A stretch of DNA of 64,000 bases from an uncultured Granulosicoccaceae bacterium (lineage in GTDB: Bacteria; Pseudomonadota; Gammaproteobacteria; Granulosicoccales; Granulosicoccaceae), in the NCBI GenBank assembly GCA_937930305.1, contig CALGLE010000032.1:1-64000 (forward strand). The letters are read 5' to 3'. The notes beneath the pieces were generated by a model. It was not told the DNA's origin, searched no databases, and worked only from the letters and a program-made list of their open reading frames with translations. Position 1 is the first letter of the stretch; each line of letters starts with the position of its first letter. Made by a program: the position numbers and the translations under genes. This document shows positions 36,174-52,266 of this stretch, piece after piece.

Positions 36174-38897
36174 ATGAGTGAACTTGTAGTGGAAAGACGT
36201 CACGATATTGACGCCAGGCAAGCATTGGAACGTGTCCAATCTCAATACCTTCAACAGTCGGGTGAGGTAAGCACGGATGTTTGCACTCAGCCCAGGCGAC
36301 TGTATGAGTGTTTGCTGCAAGAGATATTGACTATTGCAACGGCTAACTACGGCTGTGTGATGCGTTTGACTGGGGGTGATCTCGCTGAATCACCTTTCTT
36401 AGAGCTGGTGTCGGTCGTGCAACGTGATAGTGCGGGTCGGCTTGCGCGACAGTACGATACTTTGCTGAATCGTCGGCCCGAAGGGCTGGTGGAGATGGTT
36501 TTCTCCACGGGGAGTCCGACGTGGGCGAACAATAAACGCTCCAGGGTGCCTGCTTGTTTGCCTGATTGTCGTCCCCCACTGCACAATTTTGTGATCTTTC
36601 CCATCGTTACGCGCCGAAAAGCACCCTCCGTTTTGTTTGTCGCGAATTGCGATAAAACGATTAACGAGCAGTTGGTCACGCGCATTGAAAGTTTACTGTC
36701 AGGTTTTGTCCGCATACATAGAAACACCAGTACGAGCACCCAGGCGCAAGTGGCTGTTCAACGTTATCGACGTGGAGACCGGCACTACGATCGTCTTCTA
36801 AAAGCTAATTTTAATGGAGTAATGACGGTTGATCATGATGGGGTTGTTACGGCCATAAACCCCGCATGCGAAAGATATTTTGATGTTATCTGCAGTATGG
36901 CGATCGGAAAGAACGCGAACAATTACATTCCTGGGAAAATCATTCAGCCTTTGCTTGATCAGGCTTGTAAGCTTTCTGTGGACGAAAACCTATCAGAAAT
37001 TGGCACCAAGGAGCCGAAAGAGTCGATTGGCATACGTTCAGATGGCAGTGAATTTCCTATACAAGTCACCGCATTTTTTTCAAGAATTGAGCAGCACGTT
37101 TGTGTCACCCTCATCATTGACGATATCAGCGACCGTATTGAATCAGCTCGAGAATCTGAACAAGCGTTCTTCCAGCTGAAAACGCTGACTAACCTTGCTC
37201 CGGTTGGGATTCTGCAGCTAAGCGTTGATTGGACCTGCTCATATGCCAATGACATGTGGTATGCCATGAGTGAGCTCACTTCTGAGGAGTCAAATGCGGA
37301 AGGTTGGATCGATGCCATTCACGCGGATGATGTTGACTCTACCTTGAATGATTTGCGTGAATCGGTTTGTCACAACACCGTGTTCAAACGTGAGTTACGG
37401 TTGCAAAAACCTTTGGGTGGCGTAACCTGGGTTAGCATGAGTGCGACATCCACGGTGGACGATCACCATCGTTTGACCGGGTTCTTGGTTGTTTTCACTG
37501 ATATAACCGAGAAACACAACGCAGCTGTGCGGCTTAAGCAGCTCGCTCATCACGATACGCTAACGGGTTTACTCAATCGACTGCATTTTCTCGATACGCT
37601 CAATGAAATGATCGCTGATACTTCCCATAACGATACCATCGGACTCATGTCGATTGATTTAGATGGGTTTAAAGCGGTAAATGATAATTTGGGCCACGAT
37701 GCAGGCGATGCCGTGCTCAAAGAAGTGGCTGACCGATTGACGGAAACCATTGGGCAGGCGGGTATGGTTGCTCGATTGGGTGGTGATGAATTCACCGTAG
37801 GGCTACATCATGTTGAAAGCGACATGCAGACTCGTGAATTAGCTATACGCATCATAGAAAATATACAACGACCTCTGGTTGTCACTGATTCGCAAGTCGA
37901 AATATCGGCGAGTGTTGGCATCGCCATTGGCGAAAAAACTCAACTCAGCAGTGAAGTGCTCATCAAGCAGGCCGATGTGGCCCTATATCGAGCTAAGCAA
38001 AACGGAAAATCTTGCGCGGTTATTTTTTCTGAGGATTTGAACCGAGAGCAGCTATGGTTGGCGGAGTTGCATGTGAAGGTGCGTAGCGCGCTACTCAACC
38101 AGCAATTTGAATTGGTGTACCAGCCGCAAATAGACTTGGTGAACCATGAAATCATGGGGTTCGAGGCTTTGCTTAGACTGCCTAATGAGTTTGGGCTGGA
38201 AACATTGCCAGCTGATGTGGTCAAAGTACTAGAAGACAGTGGCATGATTCACGAGGTCGGTGCTTGGGCTTTACGGCGAGCGTGCAAAGATCACGTGCAA
38301 CTGCAGCAGGCGGGTTTGTTGTCCGACGGATGCACGGTTTCTGTCAATGTGTCCGCTCGGCAGTTAAGCCACTCAGCATTTTTGACCGATATCGACAAAG
38401 CGCTGGCCGATACAGGCATAGACCCATCCACGGTGATACTAGAAATTACCGAATCTGCGTTAGTGGAGCATTCCGAGAAGAATCTGCACACCATTGCTCA
38501 AATAAAAAAGCGTGGACTAAAAATATCGCTGGATGATTTTGGCACTGGGTTTTCTTCGCTCTCTTATTTAAGCCGCTTACCGATTGATCACCTGAAAATT
38601 GACAAATCTTTTATAATTGATGTATTAAATTGCAATCAGCGGCAAGCCATCGTGCGTGCAATAATCAGTATGGCAAGAGCATTGGACATCTGTGTCGTCG
38701 CGGAAGGCGTTGAAAATGACGATGTTGTTCAGTTCCTAAATAAAGAATATTGCCATTCCTATCAAGGCTTTCACCTATCGAAAGCCATGCAGTCTGCCCA
38801 AATCCGAACTTTTCTGCAAAAGATGACCAAACTACGTCTCTGCCGTTACACGTCGTTTTATAACTTGGGAGAACCGCAGTTAGCCTGCGCAGGTTAA
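36174..38897 (+). CDS. Dual-domain c-di-GMP enzyme: GAF-PAS-PAS-GGDEF-EAL
   Basis: A 907-residue cytoplasmic signalling protein with no membrane segment. A GAF-like sensor spans about 40-185, with two PAS domains at about 205-320 and 330-445. GGDEF follows (motif GGDEF at about 536-540), then EAL (motif at about 662-665). The diguanylate cyclase signature is intact, but the RxxD inhibitory site that should precede it reads TIGQ, so product inhibition is unlikely. The phosphodiesterase residues look complete: E of EALLR, N in VSVNVSARQL, E in LEITESAL, DD in SLDDFGTG, K in LKIDKSF, E in VAEGVEN and Q in YQGFHL. It probably makes or degrades c-di-GMP in response to a cytoplasmic signal. Confidence 0.93.
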   Translation: MSELVVERRHDIDARQALERVQSQYLQQSGEVSTDVCTQPRRLYECLLQEILTIATANYGCVMRLTGGDLAESPFLELVSVVQRDSAGRLARQYDTLLNRRPEGLVEMVFSTGSPTWANNKRSRVPACLPDCRPPLHNFVIFPIVTRRKAPSVLFVANCDKTINEQLVTRIESLLSGFVRIHRNTSTSTQAQVAVQRYRRGDRHYDRLLKANFNGVMTVDHDGVVTAINPACERYFDVICSMAIGKNANNYIPGKIIQPLLDQACKLSVDENLSEIGTKEPKESIGIRSDGSEFPIQVTAFFSRIEQHVCVTLIIDDISDRIESARESEQAFFQLKTLTNLAPVGILQLSVDWTCSYANDMWYAMSELTSEESNAEGWIDAIHADDVDSTLNDLRESVCHNTVFKRELRLQKPLGGVTWVSMSATSTVDDHHRLTGFLVVFTDITEKHNAAVRLKQLAHHDTLTGLLNRLHFLDTLNEMIADTSHNDTIGLMSIDLDGFKAVNDNLGHDAGDAVLKEVADRLTETIGQAGMVARLGGDEFTVGLHHVESDMQTRELAIRIIENIQRPLVVTDSQVEISASVGIAIGEKTQLSSEVLIKQADVALYRAKQNGKSCAVIFSEDLNREQLWLAELHVKVRSALLNQQFELVYQPQIDLVNHEIMGFEALLRLPNEFGLETLPADVVKVLEDSGMIHEVGAWALRRACKDHVQLQQAGLLSDGCTVSVNVSARQLSHSAFLTDIDKALADTGIDPSTVILEITESALVEHSEKNLHTIAQIKKRGLKISLDDFGTGFSSLSYLSRLPIDHLKIDKSFIIDVLNCNQRQAIVRAIISMARALDICVVAEGVENDDVVQFLNKEYCHSYQGFHLSKAMQSAQIRTFLQKMTKLRLCRYTSFYNLGEPQLACAG

Positions 38898-39007: not shown

Positions 39008-42000
39008 ATGGTTACACTGGACGACGAGGCGGAAGATTCCGTCCGGCCTAATAAAAAGAAAACGAGCGGACGCGAGCAGAGGGAATTATTGATCGCTCGC
39101 CGCAGATCGGGCTTGGAATCTCTCATTAGCGTGAATTTAGATAGTGACAACACCTCCTCGGCTGAGGGTACACCCGCGCTGTTTGTCGGCTTGGGGGCAT
39201 CGGCTGGCGGATTAGAAGCACTGTGCGACTTTTTTGATGCGCTACCCAGCGATACTGGCTGTGCTTTCATCGTGGTGCAGCACCTGTCACCCGACTTCAA
39301 AAGCTTGATGGATGAGCTTTTAAGCAAGCACACCGAAATGCCAGTTAAAAATGTCGTTGATGGCGTGCGCGTGCGCTCTAATTCTGTTTATTTAATGCCA
39401 GCGCGAAAGGATATGGTGCTTGAAGGCGGCAAGCTTTATATTACCGATCAGGTTCAGAACCAAGGCGTGAACCTCCCCATTGATGGGTTCTTTAAGTCGC
39501 TAGCTGAAAATGCGACAGATCGATCGGTTGCGGTCATTTTCTCCGGTACTGGCAGTGATGGCAGTCGCGGCCTGAAAGCGATCAAGGAGGCGGGCGGATT
39601 AGTCCTAGTGCAAGAGCCACAATCTGCCAAATTTGATGGCATGCCAATCAGCGCTATCCAAACCGGGCTGGCGGATTTTACGTTGGCTCCCGATGCCGTA
39701 GCCGAGCACCTCTCTCGCTACTCGAAGCACCCACGCATCATTAATGAGGTAACTCCGTTCAAACGGGAATTGGAACAAGACTCGGATGTGATGAATCGCA
39801 TCTTCGAACTGTTACGAGCAGAATGTGACATTGATTTTTCGCACTATAAAGCATCAACCGTTGCCCGACGTATCGAGCAACGAATTGGAATCAACCAAGT
39901 GCACACGCTGCGTGAGTACCTTGGGTTGTTGGAGGAATCGGTTAGAGAAATTCAAATTCTTGGTCGAGAATTGCTCATTAACGTTACACAGTTCTTTCGC
40001 GATACCGAAGCGTTTGACCTCGTTGAAGAGCAAGTCATTTCTCGGGTGGTTGACAAGGCCAGCGAAGGCCAAGAGTTACGAGTTTGGGTGGCTGGGTGCT
40101 CTACTGGCGAAGAGCCTTACTCTATCGCTATGCTATTTGATGAAGCGATATCAGCATCTGAAAAGAACCTAAAACTTAAAGTGTTTGCTACGGACGTGGA
40201 CAGCATGGCGATGGCCGAAGCATCCGCCGGTCGCTACTCTCGGGAAATTATTGCTGAAGTTTCCCAGGAACGATTGAATCGATACTTTCAAGAGATTCAT
40301 GGTGGATTCGAAGTTCGCACTCATTTGCGAAAGTTGGTGGTGTTTGCCCACCACAACATGATCTCAGACCCGCCGTTTTCGAACATTGACTTTATCTCTT
40401 GTCGAAACGTGCTGATTTACTTCCAGCATGCGGTGCAAAAGAAAGTTCTGGCCGGTTTTCACTTTTCACTCAAACCCGATGCACCAATTTTCTTTGGCAG
40501 TTCAGAATCCATTGGGGATTTAAAAGCCTATTTTGAATCGCTTAACGAGTCGTCCCGAGTCTACAAGAAAATAAGTAATATCAAACTACCAATAGGCAGT
40601 TTGATGCGTCAGCCCTCTGAGCACAGGGCGCCAAGATTAGGCATACCGCCAGTTTCCAATTTGCTGAGGAACTACCGCGGGCAGCAGAGTAGGGATGCCA
40701 ACTACGATCATGTGAAAGACAGCCTGCTGAATTCTTTTATTGGCGCTTGCGTGATTTTGAATGCGGACTGCCAGGCCGTCCATGTGTATGGAAATGGTGG
40801 GCGCTATATGCACAGCATGGCGGCAGGTCGAGTGTCGACAAGAATTCAAGATTTAATTTTACCTGAATTATCCATGGCTATTGACACCGCTCTTAACAAG
40901 GCCAAAGCAACCCGTACGATGGTGAAGTACGACAATATTCCGGTAAAAATAGAAGAAGAACTTGTCTCTATTTCTTTGCGCATCGAGTATTTTGAAACAT
41001 CGACAGGGAAAGCAGCCTACTACGCGCTGACTATGGAAGAAGCTGCGCGTGAAGGGAAGAATAACGCGCTTAAAGAAATCCCAGATTTTGATATCGGTGC
41101 ACAAGCGAATCAACGCATACGAGACCTTGAAAACGACATCTTACATAAGCAGGAACATCTTCAGGCAACCAATGAAGAGCTGGAAACCACAAACGAAGAG
41201 CTGCAATCGGCTAATGAAGAGCTCATGTCGTCTAACGAAGAGTTGCAGAGTACCAATGAAGAGCTGCAATCGGTGAATGAAGAATTGTTTACTGTGAACA
41301 GTGAATTCCAGCAAAAAATTACAGAACTCACTGTCGCAAACGATGATTTGGACAACGTCCTCTCCAGTACCGCCATAGGTATTGTATTTTTGGACGAAAA
41401 TGGACGTATTCGTCGCCTTACTGAAGTTGCTCGGCGCTTTTTTAACACCATGCCTTCGGACATCGGTCGGCCATTGGACCACATTTCCCACGATTTAAAA
41501 TATCCAGATCTTTTTGACGACATTCGAAGTGTTATGTCTAATTTAAGATCCATACGCCGAGAGGTTTTCTCGATTTCGGGTGAGTTTGTTCAGGTTAAGC
41601 TTGTGCCTTATAAGCCATCGGATTCATCCGGTCGCAAAGGGTGCATCATTTCAGTGGCGGATCTTTCGCATCGAACATTGAGCGATGCCGAGCGATTGAA
41701 GAAGCAACAGAGACGGCGAAAAGCCAGTGAGAATCGTGGGTCTGAAATGTCCATGCTCAACGTGCTTATTGTGGATGACAATACGGACGATCGTTTTGCC
41801 ATAGCTAACTATTTGGATCGGGTCAAATCGGTTTCAATTGCAAGCTATGAAGCGGATTCTGTGGAATCAGCGATCGCCTGTATTGAGTCAAAGGATATTG
41901 ATGTGTGTTTGTTGGATTTTAAATTGGCCAACGAAGATGCGTCTGATTTTTTGAAGAAAGCCGCCCGTAGTAAATACAGTGTGCCTGTTATTCTGGTGTC

Positions 42001-42148
42001 TGAACTTGAACGAGACATTTTGGCTGAAAAAATGAACCTAGAAGATACCGCGATGTATATCAGTAAGGGTGAGCTCAGTCCTTTGGTGTTGGAACTAAGC
42101 ATAAAACACGCTTTGGGATCATCTATCGCAATGATGGCAGACAGTTAG
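39008..42148 (+). CDS. CheB-CheR-coiled coil-PAS-receiver fusion protein
   Basis: A 1046-residue soluble signalling protein. The CheB methylesterase domain (about 58-245) keeps the catalytic S-H-D set in GASAGG, VVQHLSPDF and GTGSDG. The CheR methyltransferase domain (about 265-525) has the SAM motif VAGCSTGEEPYSIA and the CRNVLIYF motif. A heptad coiled coil of six NEEL repeats (about 720-764) leads to a PAS domain (about 775-890). The C terminus is a receiver domain (about 916-1040) with VDDN, a phospho-acceptor in LLDF and a lysine in YISKG. There is no kinase domain; the convergent neighbour carries one. This architecture without an N-terminal receiver is typical of CheB-CheR hybrids outside canonical chemotaxis operons. 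Confidence 0.92.
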   Translation: MVTLDDEAEDSVRPNKKKTSGREQRELLIARRRSGLESLISVNLDSDNTSSAEGTPALFVGLGASAGGLEALCDFFDALPSDTGCAFIVVQHLSPDFKSLMDELLSKHTEMPVKNVVDGVRVRSNSVYLMPARKDMVLEGGKLYITDQVQNQGVNLPIDGFFKSLAENATDRSVAVIFSGTGSDGSRGLKAIKEAGGLVLVQEPQSAKFDGMPISAIQTGLADFTLAPDAVAEHLSRYSKHPRIINEVTPFKRELEQDSDVMNRIFELLRAECDIDFSHYKASTVARRIEQRIGINQVHTLREYLGLLEESVREIQILGRELLINVTQFFRDTEAFDLVEEQVISRVVDKASEGQELRVWVAGCSTGEEPYSIAMLFDEAISASEKNLKLKVFATDVDSMAMAEASAGRYSREIIAEVSQERLNRYFQEIHGGFEVRTHLRKLVVFAHHNMISDPPFSNIDFISCRNVLIYFQHAVQKKVLAGFHFSLKPDAPIFFGSSESIGDLKAYFESLNESSRVYKKISNIKLPIGSLMRQPSEHRAPRLGIPPVSNLLRNYRGQQSRDANYDHVKDSLLNSFIGACVILNADCQAVHVYGNGGRYMHSMAAGRVSTRIQDLILPELSMAIDTALNKAKATRTMVKYDNIPVKIEEELVSISLRIEYFETSTGKAAYYALTMEEAAREGKNNALKEIPDFDIGAQANQRIRDLENDILHKQEHLQATNEELETTNEELQSANEELMSSNEELQSTNEELQSVNEELFTVNSEFQQKITELTVANDDLDNVLSSTAIGIVFLDENGRIRRLTEVARRFFNTMPSDIGRPLDHISHDLKYPDLFDDIRSVMSNLRSIRREVFSISGEFVQVKLVPYKPSDSSGRKGCIISVADLSHRTLSDAERLKKQQRRRKASENRGSEMSMLNVLIVDDNTDDRFAIANYLDRVKSVSIASYEADSVESAIACIESKDIDVCLLDFKLANEDASDFLKKAARSKYSVPVILVSELERDILAEKMNLEDTAMYISKGELSPLVLELSIKHALGSSIAMMADS
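41168..41298 (+). repeat. 21-nt tandem repeats encoding the NEEL heptads
   Basis: Six degenerate 21-nt units encode (S/T)NEELxx heptads in the linker of the CheB-CheR-PAS-receiver protein. They form a parallel coiled-coil signalling helix and may vary in number among strains by slippage. A matching array on the other strand (about 44498-44612) lies in the neighbouring fusion gene. Confidence 0.8.
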
Positions 42149-42185
42149 TCTTTGTCACTTTAGCAAGTCAACACCTGAGCCGATG

Positions 42186-45100
42186 CTAGAAATGCACAGT
42201 GAAGGTGCAGCCGATGTCCTGTTTACCGTCTGCTGATAGTGTCCAGCCGTGCTTTTCGCAGACTGTACTACAAATTGCTAATCCAATACCGCTACCTTTG
42301 TATTCCTTATTCTTATGAAGCCGGTTGAATGGTTCAAATATTTTGTCAACGTATTTCATGTCAAATCCAATACCGTTGTCGGTGATACTTATCCCGTGTT
42401 GACCTTCGGGGCCTGACCCGGCTATATGAATTTTTAATGGCCGCGCATCGGCTCGGTATTTGATGCTGTTGCTGATAAAGTTGATAAACAATTGCTTAAG
42501 CATACCTCTATCACCTTGCACACGAGGTAAGCCCTCTAGACTAACCGTTGCGTTTGCCTTGCTAATTTGCAAATCATATTCTGAAATCACCTCGTTGAGT
42601 AATTCATCTAAAGAGATATCTTCGGTTTCCAATTCTGCTTGTGATGTGCCACAAAAACTCAATAAATCTTTTATCAAAGTACGCATACGGCTTGATGCGT
42701 CCTGGATCACATCTAAGTGATAACGAGTATCTTTGGAGAGTTGATCTGCTAAATCTTCTTCGAGAAACGCACTAAATTGTTGTATTTTTCTTAATGGCTC
42801 TTGCAGGTCATGGGATGTTATGAAGGCAAATTGATTTAAATTTTTGTTCGCCGATTCCAGTAATCTATTTTGTGCTTCAATATCTGAAAAAGCTTTGTTG
42901 CGTTCTGATACATCAACTAATACACACATACGAGCGTTTTGAAGCGTTCCAATGTCCTTGGTTCTGCAGTTCAGCTCGGTCTCAAGCGTTGTTCCGTCCG
43001 GTTTGTTGAGTGTGACGGGAAGGCGCTTGGCGGAGCCCGTGGATAGGGCATTTGTGAATGCGGCTTGGTCTTTTACCTTGAAAACGTCTAAACACCGTTT
43101 TCCTAAAAGGTCATTTGCACTGATGCCTAAATTTTTGCTCATCAGATCACTGGCGGAAATAATCAAGCCGTCTTTGTCGCTTAAAAACATCATCGTGGGG
43201 ACGGTTTGGAATAAGCTTTGATAAAACTCGTTTTGGCTTGCCATTAATTCCATTTGTTCTTGATTGTGTAGCACCAATCCAATCCAGCCACCCAGTAACA
43301 TCGCAAAATGCTCATCTTGAGGGGAGTAAGGCCGCCCCCTTGCAATATCGGATGAAAAGCTGACTGAACCGTAGGGCCCATGCGTTGTGTTAACAGCTGC
43401 ACCGACAAAGCTCTCTATTTTAGTAAATTCGTGGCATGGAATCCCGTTTAAAGGGCTGTTAGTGACATCATCCACGGCCAAGGATTGCTTGGCGTTAATA
43501 AATTCATTGCAGAATGTATCGCTCAGGTTGATGACATCACCCGGCTTGAATGATTCCGATTTTTTTCCGACAATACTCTTTACCGTGTAATCCTGCCCCA
43601 CGATCATGCTTACAAGGGCTGTGTCTAGATCATAAAAATCCATACCCACCTGCAACAGTGCGGACAGTTTTTCGTCATAGGCCAATTCATCGTCAGCAAA
43701 GACATTGTGCAGGCGATCTAATGAAGCACTGTAGCGAACCTCATCGGTACAGTCATACCCGTTCGAATGATAGCTATCAATCGTTTTTCCATCTCGGGAA
43801 ACGGCTCGAGTGAATATTCTAGCTGTGCGTTCTGTTCCATCTGGTAGTGAAGTGGATAACGTGTCAACTTTGGCTTCACCCGGCTTTAAACCTAAAAGAG
43901 AATCCCGAAATGTTTTGCGATCTTTAGTTACTCGCAGTTCAACAATATTCTTGCCTGTCAAATGTTCGACTGTACTTTTCCAGCGCTCAGCGTAAGCCTC
44001 ATTGCAATACAAAATATTTTCGGTTTTCGCGTCCCATTGCACGAAAAAACTATCGGTATTTTCTATTAGGTCTTTGTACCGAACCCCTAGGTTTTCTAGT
44101 TCTTCTCGGATGTGTTCGACGTCAGTGATGTCAATGACGGTTAGTAGCACACTACTGGGTTGATTTTCTCGTTCTTGATACGGCATGATTCGAATTAAAA
44201 ACACACGATCGTCTATGACAACTTGCGTTTCGTTGGATTCGTTAAACTTGCTGGTTCTTTCAACTAGCTCCATGATGTCGTGGTTGAAAGCCCGAATAGT
44301 GATGTGATTTAATGGTCGGCCCACATCTTGTGGCAGGATGTTGAATACACTTCGAGCACTAGCGGTGTAACGGTGCAGGCATAAATTGGCGTCTAAATGC
44401 AGAGTGCCAATTTTTGATGATTTTAATAAGGCATCAATATCCGTGTCGCGCTCTGTGAGCTCATCGTTTTTTCTTTGGTGCTCTGCGCTGACGGTGTACA
44501 ACTCTTCATTGACAGAGTGAAGTTCTTCATTCGTACTTTGAAGCTCTTCATTGGTGGACATCAATTCTTCGTTGGTGCTTTGCAACTCCTCATTACTGGT
44601 TTCCAGTTCTTCAATGGTGGATTGCAGGCTTTCCTCAGAAGCTTGTAAGTTATGTTCAAGCATCAATACGCGTTGTTGCAAGGCCTGGGTTGATTCGAAG
44701 GTTTCGAATGATTCCACGCTTAAATTTTCATCGTTCTGCTTTGAATCGTCGATGCTAATTTTCTTTTCAATGGATAACAGTTGGAAGCGATGGGCTTCGC
44801 CTTGCAATTCCATCGGTGTCAGGGTCACTTCATAAGACGCGCCTGTTTGATCGTCATTACGAATGTAAGCCACTCGACGAAAGCTCTCAAAATTCGCTGT
44901 TTTGCTATGATCTAATGCAGCCGAAACTACCACTCTTAAGTCGGGCCGGATGAGGTCCACAACGCGTTTGCTGAATGAACCTGATTGCAATGGAATCAAT
45001 TCACCCGCATTACCGAATATATGCACAACCACACCGTCTTCGGACAAAAGAAAGCCCGGTGGGGCATGGGTGGTTACAATGGATTCTAGCGCTGCCCGGT

Positions 45101-46685
45101 GTGCTCTTTTGAACGGGATGGTGTCGTCTGAATAGGCACGTTGAGCTCTTGGTAAGCCACTGTTAGAACGTGACATGTTAGAGGCAATATCAGTGCGTTG
45201 AAAAATAGACTCTGATGCCAGCAGTTTTACGTCACGACGTTTTTTATAAATGCGCCATTTTTCATTTATCACCTCAAACTCGTGGGCAATGGAACCGATG
45301 TGTTCGCTGGGGCCTAGAAATAAGTAGCCGTCTTTTCGTAGAGAAAAGTGCAGCAGCTTCATTACTTTGTCTTGCGCTTCTTCCTTGAGATATATGAGTA
45401 AATTGCGGCAACTTATTAAATCGATACGAGTGAAAGGTGGGTCTAGCGTGACATCGTGTGTGCTGAAGAAAACCATATTCCTAAGCATGGGTTTAATCTG
45501 AGCTTGGCCATCTTCGCAATCGAAATACCGCTCAACGAGTTCTTGCGGCATGTTCCGTAAGGCATCTTCGCTGTAGATGCCGGAGCTGGCTTGGTTCATC
45601 GAGCGAATATGAATATCTGTTGCCATGATTTTTAAATGCAGATATATACCCATGCTTCTGGCTTGTTCTTGCAACAAAATGGCGATGGAGTAAGCTTCTT
45701 CGCCGCTGGCGCAGCCGGGGACCCAAACGCGTAAGGCGCTCCCGTCTTTTAGATGACTGGTTAAGTCAGGTAGCACTCTTCTGCGTAAAATATCGAACGC
45801 TGCTTTGTCTCGGAAAAACTCGGTAACTTCAATCAGCAAGTCGGCATATAGATCTTGCAGCTCTAAGGCGTTGGTATTCAGCATGTCTCGATAGTCGCTG
45901 ATATCACTGATGCCGTGCATGTGTGCCCGCCGCTCAATGCGACGATCGATGGTGGCTTCTTTGTATTGCAAAAAATCGGTGCCATGCGTGTGCTTTAACA
46001 TCGACAACACATCCGCTTTGGGGTCGGCTATGTGTTCCCGATCGCTATCTTCTAAGTCGAGCGTGGATTCACCTTTCAAAATTCGCTGAACCGATAGGGC
46101 CAGTACTTGCGGCACACCCACCAACGTGGCGTAACCATCGGAGAGCACTGAGCGAGGCATGCCGTCAAATCGAGTGGACTGAGGGTCTTGAACCAGAATT
46201 TTGCCCCCCTCTGTGTGTATTTGAGCGCTACCCAATGTGCCGTCCGAACCAGTACCGGACAACACAATGCCTAAGGCATCAGCCCCGCGACTCTTTGCTA
46301 AAGAATTGAAGAAAATATCTATAGGCAGATAAACAGTGTTCTTACTGCTTATCTCATCAACTAATAAATGATTACCTTCAATGGTCATCACCGAACGCGG
46401 CGGGTTGAGGTAAATACAGTTGGGCTCAATCTCCATGCCGTCGCTGATGCGATGGATGTTCATCGTGGAGTGGCGAGCCAGTAGCTCATCCATCAAGCTG
46501 CGAAAATCGGGAGATAGGTGCTGGATGATGATGAATGCTGACCCTGTGTCTGGGGGCATCGCATCAAAGAATTGTTCAATGGGTTCTAACCCGCCTGCCG
46601 AGGCACCGATTGCAGTAATTGGGACAAGCGCCAGGGAGGAGGATACCGAACTTAACGGACCATCCTGTTTGTCCTTCTCTGTCAT
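42186..46685 (-). CDS. CheB-CheR-PAS-GAF-histidine kinase fusion protein
   Basis: A 1499-residue signalling protein. CheB (about 17-210) has GASAGG, IIQHLSPDF and GTGSDG. CheR (about 230-490) has VPGCASGEEAYSIA and CRNLLIYL. An NEEL coiled coil (about 690-730) is followed by PAS (about 745-855), PAS (about 870-1000), GAF (about 1015-1150) and PAS (about 1165-1280). The kinase has its H-box SHDLQEPLRK near 1290, N-box NFISNSIKY, and G-boxes DNGIGFD and GSGIGLAI near the end. It converges on the other CheB-CheR gene with a 37-nt gap and shares its first half with it, suggesting duplication followed by different C-terminal additions. It lacks its own receiver. Confidence 0.93.
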   Translation of the reverse strand: MTEKDKQDGPLSSVSSSLALVPITAIGASAGGLEPIEQFFDAMPPDTGSAFIIIQHLSPDFRSLMDELLARHSTMNIHRISDGMEIEPNCIYLNPPRSVMTIEGNHLLVDEISSKNTVYLPIDIFFNSLAKSRGADALGIVLSGTGSDGTLGSAQIHTEGGKILVQDPQSTRFDGMPRSVLSDGYATLVGVPQVLALSVQRILKGESTLDLEDSDREHIADPKADVLSMLKHTHGTDFLQYKEATIDRRIERRAHMHGISDISDYRDMLNTNALELQDLYADLLIEVTEFFRDKAAFDILRRRVLPDLTSHLKDGSALRVWVPGCASGEEAYSIAILLQEQARSMGIYLHLKIMATDIHIRSMNQASSGIYSEDALRNMPQELVERYFDCEDGQAQIKPMLRNMVFFSTHDVTLDPPFTRIDLISCRNLLIYLKEEAQDKVMKLLHFSLRKDGYLFLGPSEHIGSIAHEFEVINEKWRIYKKRRDVKLLASESIFQRTDIASNMSRSNSGLPRAQRAYSDDTIPFKRAHRAALESIVTTHAPPGFLLSEDGVVVHIFGNAGELIPLQSGSFSKRVVDLIRPDLRVVVSAALDHSKTANFESFRRVAYIRNDDQTGASYEVTLTPMELQGEAHRFQLLSIEKKISIDDSKQNDENLSVESFETFESTQALQQRVLMLEHNLQASEESLQSTIEELETSNEELQSTNEELMSTNEELQSTNEELHSVNEELYTVSAEHQRKNDELTERDTDIDALLKSSKIGTLHLDANLCLHRYTASARSVFNILPQDVGRPLNHITIRAFNHDIMELVERTSKFNESNETQVVIDDRVFLIRIMPYQERENQPSSVLLTVIDITDVEHIREELENLGVRYKDLIENTDSFFVQWDAKTENILYCNEAYAERWKSTVEHLTGKNIVELRVTKDRKTFRDSLLGLKPGEAKVDTLSTSLPDGTERTARIFTRAVSRDGKTIDSYHSNGYDCTDEVRYSASLDRLHNVFADDELAYDEKLSALLQVGMDFYDLDTALVSMIVGQDYTVKSIVGKKSESFKPGDVINLSDTFCNEFINAKQSLAVDDVTNSPLNGIPCHEFTKIESFVGAAVNTTHGPYGSVSFSSDIARGRPYSPQDEHFAMLLGGWIGLVLHNQEQMELMASQNEFYQSLFQTVPTMMFLSDKDGLIISASDLMSKNLGISANDLLGKRCLDVFKVKDQAAFTNALSTGSAKRLPVTLNKPDGTTLETELNCRTKDIGTLQNARMCVLVDVSERNKAFSDIEAQNRLLESANKNLNQFAFITSHDLQEPLRKIQQFSAFLEEDLADQLSKDTRYHLDVIQDASSRMRTLIKDLLSFCGTSQAELETEDISLDELLNEVISEYDLQISKANATVSLEGLPRVQGDRGMLKQLFINFISNSIKYRADARPLKIHIAGSGPEGQHGISITDNGIGFDMKYVDKIFEPFNRLHKNKEYKGSGIGLAICSTVCEKHGWTLSADGKQDIGCTFTVHF
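44498..44612 (-). repeat. Second NEEL heptad-repeat array
   Basis: Degenerate 21-nt units on the minus strand encode the NEELQST / NEELMST / NEELHSV heptads of the CheB-CheR-kinase protein. They correspond to the array at 41168-41298. Confidence 0.75.
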
Positions 46686-48607: not shown

Positions 48608-50518
48608 CTAAGGTTCTAGTAAACCACGTTTACGCAGTTCGGCAATAACCCGTTCTGCTGCTTGTTCGGCCGATAGGGTGCCGGTGTCTACTAAAATTTC
48701 TGCAGACTCAGGGGCCTCATAGGGCGAATCAATACCGGTGAAGTTTTGCAGTTCCCCGCGTCGCGCCTTTTTGTATAGGCCCTTAGGGTCACGCTCTTCA
48801 GCAATGGCCAATGGGGTTTCTACATAGACTTCGATAAATTCGCGTTCTCCCACAATGCTGCGTGCTAAGGCGCGCTCTGATCGGAAAGGCGAGATGAAAG
48901 CGGTTAATACAATCATGCCCGCATCAACCATCAAGCCAGCCACTTCACCTATGCGACGAATGTTTTCCACGCGATCTGAATCGGTGAAACCTAAGTCCTT
49001 GTTCAGGCCGTGGCGCACGTTGTCACCGTCTAAAAGGTAGGTGTGATGACCTGCAGCTGCCAATTTCTTCTCGACAATGTTGGCCACGGTGGATTTACCA
49101 GCACCGGATAATCCGGTAAACCAAACAACCGCAGGCTTTTGACCTTTCAGTTCCGATCGACGATCTTTATTCACATCGGTGGCTTGCATGTGAATGTTTT
49201 CTGAGCGGCGAAGGGCGAAGTGCAACATGCCTGCGCCAACGGTGTGGTTGGCGACGCGATCGATCAGAATGAAGCTACCGGTTTCTTGATTGTCTTCAAA
49301 TGCATCAAACGCAATGGGTTGGTCTGTGCTGATGTTGCAAATACCAATGGCATTAAGCTCAAGCTGCTTAGCCGCTGTTTGCTCCAGGGTGTTCACATTC
49401 ACTTCGTGTTTAATTTGCGTCACCGTGGCAGACACGGTCTTAGTGCCGATTTTTAACCAATAGGGACGACCACTGTGCAGGGGTTCCTCGTGCATCCACA
49501 CAATCGTGGTTTCAAATTGATCGGCTGTGCTGGCTGGGTTTTCCGTGGTGGAAATGATATCGCCACGCGACACATCAATTTCATCAGCCAGTGTAATGGT
49601 GACACTTTGTCCTGCCACCGCTTCAGCTAAGTCGCCGTCTTGAGTGACGATGCGAGCTACCGAGCTGGTTTTACCCGAGGGTTGAACTCGAATCGTATCA
49701 CCGGGTTTTACCGATCCGCTGGCGATTGAGCCTGCAAAGCCTCGGAAATCGAGGTTGGGGCGGTTAACCCATTGCACGGGCAAGCGAAACGGTGCGTTAC
49801 GCCGGTGTTCATCATTAACTTCCGCTGTTTCTAAATACGACAACAAGGTTGGGCCGTGATACCAAGGCATCTTCGGGCTGCGTTGCAAAATGTTATCGCC
49901 ACGCAGGGCTGACATGGGAATGGCGGTTACGTTTTCTAAGCCAATGTCTTTGGCAAATGCTTGATAGGTATCTACGATGTCGTCGTACACGCTTTCGTCG
50001 TAATTCATCAAATCCATCTTATTCACAGCCAAGATAACATTACGAATACCCAGTAGTGACAACAAGTAACTGTGTCGACGTGTTTGCGTTAATACGCCTT
50101 GTCGCGCATCACAAAGGATTACGGCAGCATCACAAGTGGACGCGCCAGTCACCATATTACGTGTGTACTGTTCGTGTCCTGGCGTATCTGCCACTATGAA
50201 CTTACGATTTTCAGTTGAGAAGAAACGGTAAGCCACATCAATCGTGATGCCTTGCTCGCGCTCTGCTGCTAGCCCGTCGACGAGCAGTGCAAAGTCCATT
50301 TCCTTACCTTGTGTGCCCCATTTTTTCGAATCAGATGCAACCGCGTCGAGTTGATCTTCGAATAAGACTTTGCTTTCATAAAGCAGGCGACCGATTAACG
50401 TACTTTTACCGTCGTCCACACTGCCGCATGTAATAAAGCGCAACAGGCTTTTGTTTTCATGCTGGTTTAAATAGGCGTCGATGTCACTGGCAATTAAATC
50501 GTGGTTTGGCTGGTTCAT
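48608..50518 (-). CDS. cysNC: Bifunctional sulfate adenylyltransferase subunit 1 / adenylylsulfate kinase
   Basis: A 636-residue fusion. The N-terminal CysN GTPase has GSVDDGKST (32-40), DTPGHEQYT and NKMD, with EF-Tu-like beta-barrels behind. The C-terminal CysC kinase starts near residue 450, with P-loop GLSGAGKST (about 467-475) and [18 protein letters not shown] hydrolysis drives CysD-catalysed APS formation, and the CysC part phosphorylates APS to PAPS for assimilation or sulfation. Its ATG overlaps the cysD stop by one base (TAATG), indicating coupling. Gene fusions of cysN and cysC are known in many Proteobacteria. Confidence 0.96.
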
Positions 50519-52266
50519 TAGAAGTAGCCCTCTTGTTTTTTCTTCTCCATCGAGGCGGATGTGTCGTGATCGATCAAACGGCCTTGACGTTCGGAGGTAG
50601 TGGCAAGCAACATTTCTTGAATGATGTCGGTTAGCGTTGTGGCGTTGGATTCAACCGCGCCGGTCAGTGGGTAACAGCCCAGTGTGCGAAAACGCACGCG
50701 CTTCATTTCTGGGGTTTCACCTTCTAATAGCGGCATACGATCATCATCTACCATGATGATTTGGCCGTCGCGTTCAACCACGGGGCGCTCACCTGAAAAA
50801 TACAACGGCACGATAGGGATGGACTGCTGATGGATGTACTGCCAGATATCCAATTCGGTCCAGTTGGATAAAGGGAATACCCGAATCGATTCATCTTTGC
50901 GTTTTTTCGCGTTGTATAAACTCCATAACTCTGGGCGCTGGCTCTTAGGCTCCCAGCGATGCGCAGACGTTCGGAAACTGAACACGCGCTCTTTTGCACG
51001 CGACTTCTCTTCATCACGGCGTGCGCCACCGAAGGCCACATCAAAACCGTGCTTGTCCAAGGCTTGCTTAAGCGCTTGAGTTTTTAAAATATCGGTATGC
51101 AATTCTGAGCCGTGTGTAAACGGGCTAACACCTTGCTTGATGCCTTCCTCGTTGCGATGAACCAGTAATTCAAAGCCCAAGTCTTTCGCAATCGAATCAC
51201 GAAATTTGTACATCTCTTGGAATTTCCACGTGGTGTCTACGTGCAGCAGTGGAAACGGAGGAGGTGCTGGGTAAAAGGCTTTTACCGCCAAGTGCAGCAT
51301 CACTGCGCTGTCTTTACCGATGGAATACAACATGACCGGATTTTCAGCCTCAGCCACCACTTCGCGCATGATGTGGATGCTTTCCGCTTCCAGGCGTTGC
51401 AAATGAGTGAGCTGTTCTGGAGCAAGCAGCAGATCGCTGGCTTTGTCCGGTGTTTGATTGAGAGCTGTCATAGTTGATCGAGCCGTTATAGTTGAAGATG
51501 AATTCGAGTTATCCGATTCCATTGCCGCGGGTAACAACAAAGCGGAATTTCCGGTTTGTTGCTGCCACTGCTGTATCCAGGTTTTTTCAATGCCTTGATT
51601 CAGTCGTGTGACAGGCGCAAGGGCTGTGCCGACGTGCTCGGTAACAGCGCTTAGGAATTCGATAAAAGTGTTTTGCTCCACGCGATTAACCAAAACCCAC
51701 AGGCAAAGCCCACGAGCGGTGTGTGCGCATAACAAGGTATGTGTTTGATCGCCAGCTGCGATTGGGTGTGTGCTCAGCCAAACCAGTCGACGCTTTAATC
51801 GCCGAGCCTCAGTCGTGAAGCGATGGCTTTCGGTGCCAGGGGCCGGTTTGTAGCCTGAAGCTGGCGATGAGGGGGCAAGTCCCCAGGATTTACTGTGTCG
51901 GCTAGCTGTGGCGGTACTCACTGCAACGCCCTGTTCGTTGAGCCACTCATGTACACGAGCCGCTGTCCAAAGAGCGTGTTGCGGCAATTCGCCATCACCA
52001 AGCAGGGCGGTTTGAATAAGTGTCGATTTCAGTTCGTCCAGTTTTTCCGGCGTTAGCGCCTTGGTAGCTGCAGGCCGGCCGCGTGGTTTTACGGCCACGC
52101 CATCCCAGCCGCCCAAGTCGTAGGCTTTCATGGCCGCCACGACAGTGGGCACACTCAAGCCAACCGCTGAGCTGACATCCGCTAAGGATTCACCGTCCAA
52201 ACGTCGCCGAACCGCGTCGAGGCGGCGTTCATTTAAAACTTTGATAGGCGAGGTTGTGTTGGACAC
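50518..52266 (-). CDS. cysD: Sulfate adenylyltransferase subunit 2 with transposase-like N-terminal extension
   Basis: The frame encodes 582 residues from GTG 52266. Residues 266-582 are a full CysD (E. coli 302 residues): MTALNQ start, PP-loop [35 protein letters not shown] and the [10 protein letters not shown]-like end [10 protein letters not shown]. Residues 1-265 are extra. About 13-50 is a helix-turn-helix ([20 protein letters not shown]), then [13 protein letters not shown]. About 73-132 is a winged helix with [19 protein letters not shown], as in IS630-type transposases. Residues about 155-255 may be a decayed RNase H-like part without recognisable DDE residues. A Ser/Asn-rich linker joins to CysD. 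An internal ATG at 51471 could give CysD alone, but neither start has a clear ribosome-binding site. Confidence 0.88.

Follow-up and report, generated by a model that had tools for sequence, protein, structure and literature searches.

Two neighbouring CheB-CheR fusions of separate ancestry share a conserved glutamate-rich coil that may serve as their own methyl acceptor

We analysed a window of 64,000 nucleotides from an uncultured Granulosicoccaceae bacterium (contig CALGLE010000032.1), in which two large CheB-CheR fusion proteins, hereafter A and B, are encoded by convergent genes whose stop codons lie 37 bases apart. A and B belong to two ancient clades within a widespread family of soluble proteins with the layout CheB-CheR-PAS-NEEL coil-PAS. 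The C-terminal part of this family is freely exchanged and may be a kinase with or without a receiver, a receiver alone, GGDEF-EAL, or absent. We tentatively propose, as a serious possibility that falls a little short of probable, that the two proteins work as a regulatory pair linked to the control of c-di-GMP, with self- or mutually methylated coils that would tune the kinase and the output.

A first-pass annotation of this DNA had described tail-to-tail CheB-CheR fusions, and both reading frames lie where it placed them, free of internal stops: A (1046 amino acids, CheB-CheR-PAS-coil-PAS-receiver) at 39008-42148 on the forward strand, and B (1499 amino acids, CheB-CheR-PAS-coil-PAS-PAS-GAF-PAS-histidine kinase) at 42186-46685 on the reverse strand. 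Pfam places CheB, CheR_N and CheR in that order in both proteins, and a PAS-like domain, the NEEL coil and a PAS_10 domain come after CheR. Along the forward strand, A comprises a CheB methylesterase domain with intact catalytic residues (39185-39712; Pfam CheB_methylest, residues 60-235), CheR N-terminal and SAM-binding domains with intact motifs (39794-40549; CheR_N 263-310, CheR 325-514), a PAS-like domain recognised by its modelled fold and without Pfam match (about residues 564-680; 40697-41047), a long helix (41093-41368) with NEEL heptads at about 41171-41287, a PAS_10 domain (41348-41665; residues 781-886) and a receiver domain with intact phosphorylation residues (41762-42067; Response_reg 919-1020). 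On the reverse strand, B comprises a CheB domain with intact catalytic residues (46113-46613; residues 25-190), CheR N-terminal and SAM-binding domains (45252-46004; CheR_N 228-272, CheR 287-478), the NEEL coil (44436-44693, heptads at about 44481-44621), a PAS_10 domain (44124-44435; residues 751-854), a second PAS domain (43731-44081; PAS_4 match 889-972), a GAF-like domain (43251-43730), a third PAS domain (42963-43229; PAS 1153-1241) and a kinase core (42189-42836; HisKA 1284-1344, HATPase_c 1391-1499), in which the phospho-His and N/G motifs can be read. The GAF-like domain has no Pfam match and was assigned by homology, because the same region matches a relative (L070, 36 bits) in which Pfam finds GAF. 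Domain order and the two different ends agree with the earlier description, which had overlooked the PAS-like domain between CheR and the coil. In canonical CheB a receiver precedes and gates the methylesterase; unlike it, neither A nor B has a Pfam Response_reg match before CheB, and the receiver of A lies at the far C-terminus. The MCPsignal domain (PF00015) is absent from both proteins in Pfam searches, and no NCBIfam model appears among the matches listed at its cut-off for either. Elsewhere in the window, a CysD-like reading frame (50518-52266, reverse strand; PAPS_reduct 309-536) is extended at its N-terminus by about 270 residues that begin with a match to transposase-type helix-turn-helix domains, and it may be either a fusion or a remnant reading frame.

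Both proteins retain full CheB and CheR active sites, as had been claimed. In an alignment of 123 fusions and one CheR-only relative (124 rows), A and B keep the CheB Ser/His/Asp residues and the CheR FFRD, GEE, ATD and CRN motifs, whose roles we take to be those of the Salmonella enzymes. All 124 rows retain the CheR Arg, Asp and Asn, and 120 of them the CheB Ser and His. AlphaFold modelling of residues 535-895 of A from a 37-row alignment (mean pLDDT 86.9) gave a PAS-like fold, the coil helix and a second PAS domain, residues 696-787 forming one unbroken helix. The full-length model of A, in which the coil is poor (pLDDT about 50-66) and broken at 747-752, was set aside for contacts. With VIA-align, the first PAS-like fold superimposes on 4ew7 (Z 11.2, rmsd 3.5, 101 aligned) and on 4kqd (Z 10.9, rmsd 4.4, 111 aligned). 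The Foldseek matches of the PAS-coil-PAS model were proteins with two PAS domains that superimposed poorly on the model as a whole (TMq 0.21-0.28), and hence only the single-domain PAS matches to 4ew7 and 4kqd were relied on. Sixteen solved-structure chains match A, none of which spans CheB and CheR together, and the PAS-coil-PAS profile found no whole-module match among solved structures.

A phylogeny of the CheB-CheR halves was computed for 123 of 125 fusions, leaving out L108, which repeats the L095 stretch, and L171, a split reading frame. A falls into a clade of 13 sequences, mainly receiver-ended proteins (SH-aLRT 99), and B into a clade of seven that includes a Tateyamaria protein (SH-aLRT 99), itself nested in a set of 28 rich in kinases (SH-aLRT 98); a careful tree of 39 of the 123 rows supported the A clade and the B clade at 100/99. 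The first-pass annotation had explained the pair by a duplication, after which kinase and receiver were divided between the copies, and the common order CheB-CheR-PAS-coil-PAS, together with 39% identity over 794 aligned positions, speaks for such a local tandem event. In the 39-row tree, however, forcing A and B to be sisters cost 419.6 log-likelihood units (AU p 1.7e-45), and forcing them together with their nearest kin gave p 8.7e-10, and making the whole A and B clades sisters p 0.031. The duplication is thus refuted: the two halves have separate origins, the tree and the AU tests rule out a recent local event, and the probability left to it is negligible. That A and B share an old ancestor within the fusion family is not in doubt. 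Adjacent fusion pairs or triplets also occur in Chloroflexi (L129, L133), Rivularia (L132), Paraburkholderia (L180) and a family genome (L092, G025); side-by-side fusions are thus found outside this bacterial family as well.

The rear half of B has its own history. A similar PAS-GAF-PAS-kinase exists as a stand-alone protein of about 640 amino acids in five genomes (G005, G010, G013, G017, G022), where its operon also encodes a Ras-like small GTPase; in G005 and G017 it is followed by a receiver gene of 150 amino acids. On its contig C9 (L188), the genome under study also has the kinase in this stand-alone form, accompanied by the GTPase and the receiver, and in G027 a long CheB-CheR version fills the kinase slot of the operon and is followed by the receiver gene. 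Judged from these relatives, B looks like a kinase that acquired a CheB-CheR-coil front. The operon itself is conserved (L188, 8289-12971, reverse strand, on C9; L095; L103-L107), and comprises the GTPase, the PAS-GAF-PAS kinase, usually a receiver gene, a protein of 430-440 amino acids without Pfam match (checked in L095 and L188) and a 132-amino-acid protein without match (checked in L106).

The host assembly (4.2 Mb, 55 contigs, 94.7% complete) contains no CheB or CheR match other than A and B. A single MCP match and two CheW matches were found, all on contig C37 in one cluster, whose genes we take to resemble PilG, PilH, PilI, PilJ and ChpA and which includes no CheR or CheB gene. The initial observation that no MCP lies near A and B is therefore right, and it extends to the whole genome. 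Among 36 family genomes counted by hand (G000-G035, the genome itself and 35 relatives), fusions are the only CheB/CheR proteins, with zero or one MCP match, in nine (G000, G009, G011, G015, G025, G027, G028, G033, G035); divergent CheB matches in G014 (75 bits) and G023 (59 bits) were not among the sequences retrieved. G011 (63% complete) and G033 (93% complete) have a fusion and no MCP match, and four genomes (G010, G013, G017, G022; 82-88% complete) have one MCP and neither CheB nor CheR. The fusions are thus maintained where ordinary receptors are missing, and the single-MCP system where CheR and CheB are; the single MCPs of these genomes are probably PilJ-like, judged from weak scores.

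The coil accompanies the enzymes almost throughout. A profile of the coil, searched against 57 genomes, gave 41 matches at E 3.5e-11 or better: 39 CheB-CheR fusions, one BLUF-CheR-coil-PAS protein and one match cut by a contig end, CheR hence being present in 40 of 41 cases. The weak matches of G010 and G021 (E about 7e-7), taken to be generic coils, are not included. Among the 125 fusions listed, one of which (L108) repeats another (L095), the coil is present in 124, the exception being L171; that it is always tied to CheR could simply reflect one inherited architecture. The BLUF protein (L091, 6689-8920, reverse strand, G024:C9), fused to CheR, NEEL coil and PAS_10 and devoid of CheB, is probably a light-sensing relative of the family. 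In L171 (2946-6656, forward strand), from a Lokiarchaeota MAG, an in-frame stop separates CheB-CheR (506 amino acids) from PAS-coil-PAS-kinase (725 amino acids), and the split may be either real or a sequencing error.

Entropy along the coil was computed over 123 coils (effective number 91), with the Asn of NEEL set at heptad position a and the Leu at d. In the NEEL zone, the exposed Glu positions b and c have entropies of 0.32 and 0.30 bits, the core positions a and d 0.58 and 0.57 bits, and positions e, f and g 1.49, 1.09 and 1.37 bits, with small residues making up 95% of f. The exposed Glu-Glu pair is thus more conserved than the coil core, unlike in the flanking helix, where b and c reach 2.79 and 2.48 bits. 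Of 98 gap runs in the coil alignment, 97 have a length of 7, which is no count of events, since a single gap is common to many of the rows. The second Glu of NEEL falls at heptad c of the exposed pair, the position at which MCPs usually carry the methyl group, on the second residue of their pair (PMC6829392).

Methylation-site patterns give a mixed picture. A 9-mer (two small residues, any residue, a Glu/Gln pair, two of any kind, two small), fitted after the repeat had been seen, matches four sites in A and four in B, and 412 sites across the 123 coils, compared with 2.1 on average over 200 shuffles, a difference to be read in the light of that fitting. The published 10-mer, as quoted in PMC6829392, has one more position on the left; it has no match in the coils of A and B and finds 19 sites, all in the coil, in 18 of 123 fusions. 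The classic EExxA[S/T] is absent from both coils. In a positive control of ten MCP loci, the 10-mer matched eight and the 9-mer six, with control reading frames picked by a crude pattern, such that the two without match (L190, L194) may be wrong frames. Because the 9-mer was fitted afterwards and the 10-mer is unmatched, we claim only a resemblance for the coils of A and B. Three fusions of one clade (L081, L084, L090) have a broken CheB and keep the Glu-Glu heptads, and the divergent fusion of L180 (4587) keeps most CheR/enzyme residues and has lost the heptads, leaving no site; neither supports self-methylation.

Taken on this sequence evidence, the coil is the likeliest candidate substrate of methylation by A and B. 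The first-pass annotation had suspected an unusual target, perhaps the coils; the lack of any other CheB or CheR in the genome, an MCP without consensus and the conserved Glu pair all agree with this suspicion, and the lack of a match to the strict consensus does not. That mismatch would be expected if the coil were just a conserved dimerising signalling helix and CheR and CheB acted on some other protein. Long coils between PAS domains commonly relay signals, which makes such a role natural, but a pure signalling helix accounts poorly for b and c positions more conserved than the core, a bias that the flanking helix does not show, or for the lack of any strong coil match apart from CheR in the 57 genomes, and we regard it as rather unlikely. 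The Pil-Chp system, on the other hand, has PilK and ChpB, and A and B might replace these missing proteins to act on PilJ, the only MCP of the genome, whose cluster has no CheR or CheB gene beside it. Yet the PilJ-like MCP matches neither the 9-mer nor the published 10-mer nor EExxA[S/T], its one match being to the loosest of the four methylation patterns tried; CheR and CheB are both lacking from four of the family genomes that have a single MCP, G033, at 93% completeness, has a fusion and no MCP match, and the fusions do not adjoin pil genes. With the consensus lacking and the MCP and the fusions occurring separately, PilJ is an improbable substrate.

The setting of A points to c-di-GMP. A gene for a 907-amino-acid PAS-PAS-GGDEF-EAL protein with a weak GAF match (36174-38897, forward strand) ends 110 bases upstream of A. 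In the family, 11 of 12 A-clade genes, all but L072, are immediately preceded by a GGDEF gene of the same orientation, as is the Saccharophagus A-clade gene, and the upstream genes encode GGDEF-EAL proteins wherever Pfam was run. Moreover, GGDEF-EAL follows the coil-PAS in the same protein in three of 85 fusions from GTDB loci, belonging to Legionellaceae, Rhodocyclaceae and Planctomycetota. From the gene pair and these in-cis fusions, c-di-GMP appears to be the likeliest output of A. A third clade of fusions ends after PAS_10; in seven of its loci (L075, L077, L079, L086, L094, L098 and L102), a GGDEF gene converges at the 3' end, and a histidine kinase of about 350 amino acids lies just upstream in L073, L075, L079, L094 and L102.

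Both clades are present in three of the 57 genomes, and in all three an A and a B member adjoin: convergent and 37 bases apart in the window, in tandem 46 bases apart in G018, and in tandem with a 4-base overlap in G003. The pairing is not random. The G018 and G003 pairs come after a PAS-GGDEF-EAL gene, and their A members have no receiver and their B members no kinase; these two pairs share ancestry, and the joint loss hence counts once. Since pairs are kept without receiver and kinase, pairing does not rest on these two domains alone. In G003, a phytochrome with HWE kinase and receiver (L071, 3290-5824, forward strand) converges on the kinase-less B-clade gene, for which it is a possible stand-in kinase.

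A different emphasis would make phosphotransfer the main link, with the kinase of B phosphorylating the receiver of A and so gating its CheB or CheR, methylation being secondary. A matched relay from B to A is possible: the receiver of A keeps its acidic pair, phospho-Asp, Ser and Lys, that is, all its phosphorylation residues, whereas one acidic residue and the Ser/Thr are gone from the receiver of its closest relative, in G009, where B is missing, and the Asp and Lys from the receiver of L072 in G003. Among kinase-bearing B-clade genes, three (L082, L095, L109) are followed by a small receiver gene and only the B of the window is not, its 3' neighbour being A with its receiver; receiver and kinase are, furthermore, absent together from the G003 and G018 pairs. 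More broadly, 9 of 16 kinase-ended fusions without a receiver of their own have a receiver gene directly downstream (L108 left out). Against a dedicated relay, receiver-bearing A-clade genes occur without a B-clade gene in eight other genomes of the genus, B orthologs occur without A in G015 and G027, B could be served by the receiver gene that accompanies the kinase paralog on C9, and the receiver of A stands outside that receiver family. Between A and its G009 relative, the CheB-CheR half is 81% identical, CheR 82%, the coil 94% and the receiver, the fastest-changing domain, 56%, which may indicate either retuning to a new partner or relaxed constraint. Phosphotransfer as the main link thus strikes us as possible and somewhat doubtful.

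In the regulator that we favour, built on coil methylation, CheR would methylate and CheB demethylate the second Glu of the repeated NEEL motif, on the protein's own coil or on that of its partner in a mixed or neighbouring dimer. The coil would join the sensory PAS domains to the output, and by virtue of this link its methylation level could store a memory in the manner of a chemoreceptor, with no such receptor involved. A would act on the GGDEF-EAL enzyme encoded upstream, the kinase activity of B would be tuned by the B coil, and B may in addition phosphorylate the receiver of A; coil methylation, heteromeric contact, action on c-di-GMP and phosphotransfer are all predicted steps. Carried further, A and B may achieve adaptation free of receptors, as a mixed methyl-accepting complex that sets the c-di-GMP level and kinase activity without an MCP, an extension that we put forward with real reserve.

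Several known systems resemble parts of this arrangement. The CheB-CheR hybrid RC1_3878 of Rhodospirillum centenum, one of the CheB-CheR-PAS fusions in databases, joins CheB and CheR in one polypeptide, as do A and B, and the passage of PMC2890560 that names it gives no function; A and B differ in being adjoining members of different clades, one of which bears the kinase and the other the receiver. In Rhodobacter sphaeroides, CheBRA, a putative methyltransferase-methylesterase fusion, belongs to an organism with chemoreceptor clusters and was deleted there as background, and the passages of PMC6829392 on it make no claim about a target of its own. Like the NEEL coil, the MCP Tsr of E. coli carries a Glu pair on a helix near small residues, and its reversible methylation acts as memory (PMC1079850), which is what we propose for A and B. 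Compared with Tsr and its stand-alone CheR and CheB, however, A and B lack the receptor signalling tip and the CheA/CheW coupling, carry the enzymes in the same chain and do not match the strict consensus. As for Pil-Chp, the genome has the rest of a similar cluster without a PilK or ChpB gene there, and A and B, as large fusions, have another architecture than PilK and ChpB. Hybrid histidine kinases with CheB-CheR front ends in Planctomycetota and Cyanobacteria (for example L110-L113, L116, L132, L148) share the front module and bear kinase and receiver on one protein, whereas A and B have them on two of separate ancestry. One Planctomycetota reading frame (L110, 7902-18092, forward strand) reaches 3396 amino acids, opening with CheB-CheR-PAS-coil-PAS-kinase-receiver and continuing for 2053 C-terminal residues to which no domain is assigned. 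In the literature covered, with few subscription journals and no preprints, we found no function or methyl target for this architecture.

The family is widespread, with at least 585 relatives of the query among the 589 candidate stretches listed in one genome scan, and to that extent known. The novelty lies in two members of long-separate descent that recur as a pair next to c-di-GMP genes, here in a genome with a single MCP, and in a quantified case for the NEEL coil as methyl acceptor, the last step of which we infer. Glutamyl methylation by CheR is known mainly from chemoreceptors. If our reading is true, the CheB-CheR-coil-PAS family would constitute a second class of methyl-accepting signalling protein, spanning bacteria and archaea, and methylation memory would work outside chemotaxis, in proteins with intact CheR and CheB, exposed Glu-Glu heptads of their own and few MCPs around them. 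Since the genome of A and B has a lone Pil-type MCP and encodes CheB and CheR domains nowhere else, the methylation question is directly testable there, and the association of A with a GGDEF-EAL gene, along with the in-cis fusions, points to c-di-GMP as the likely output.
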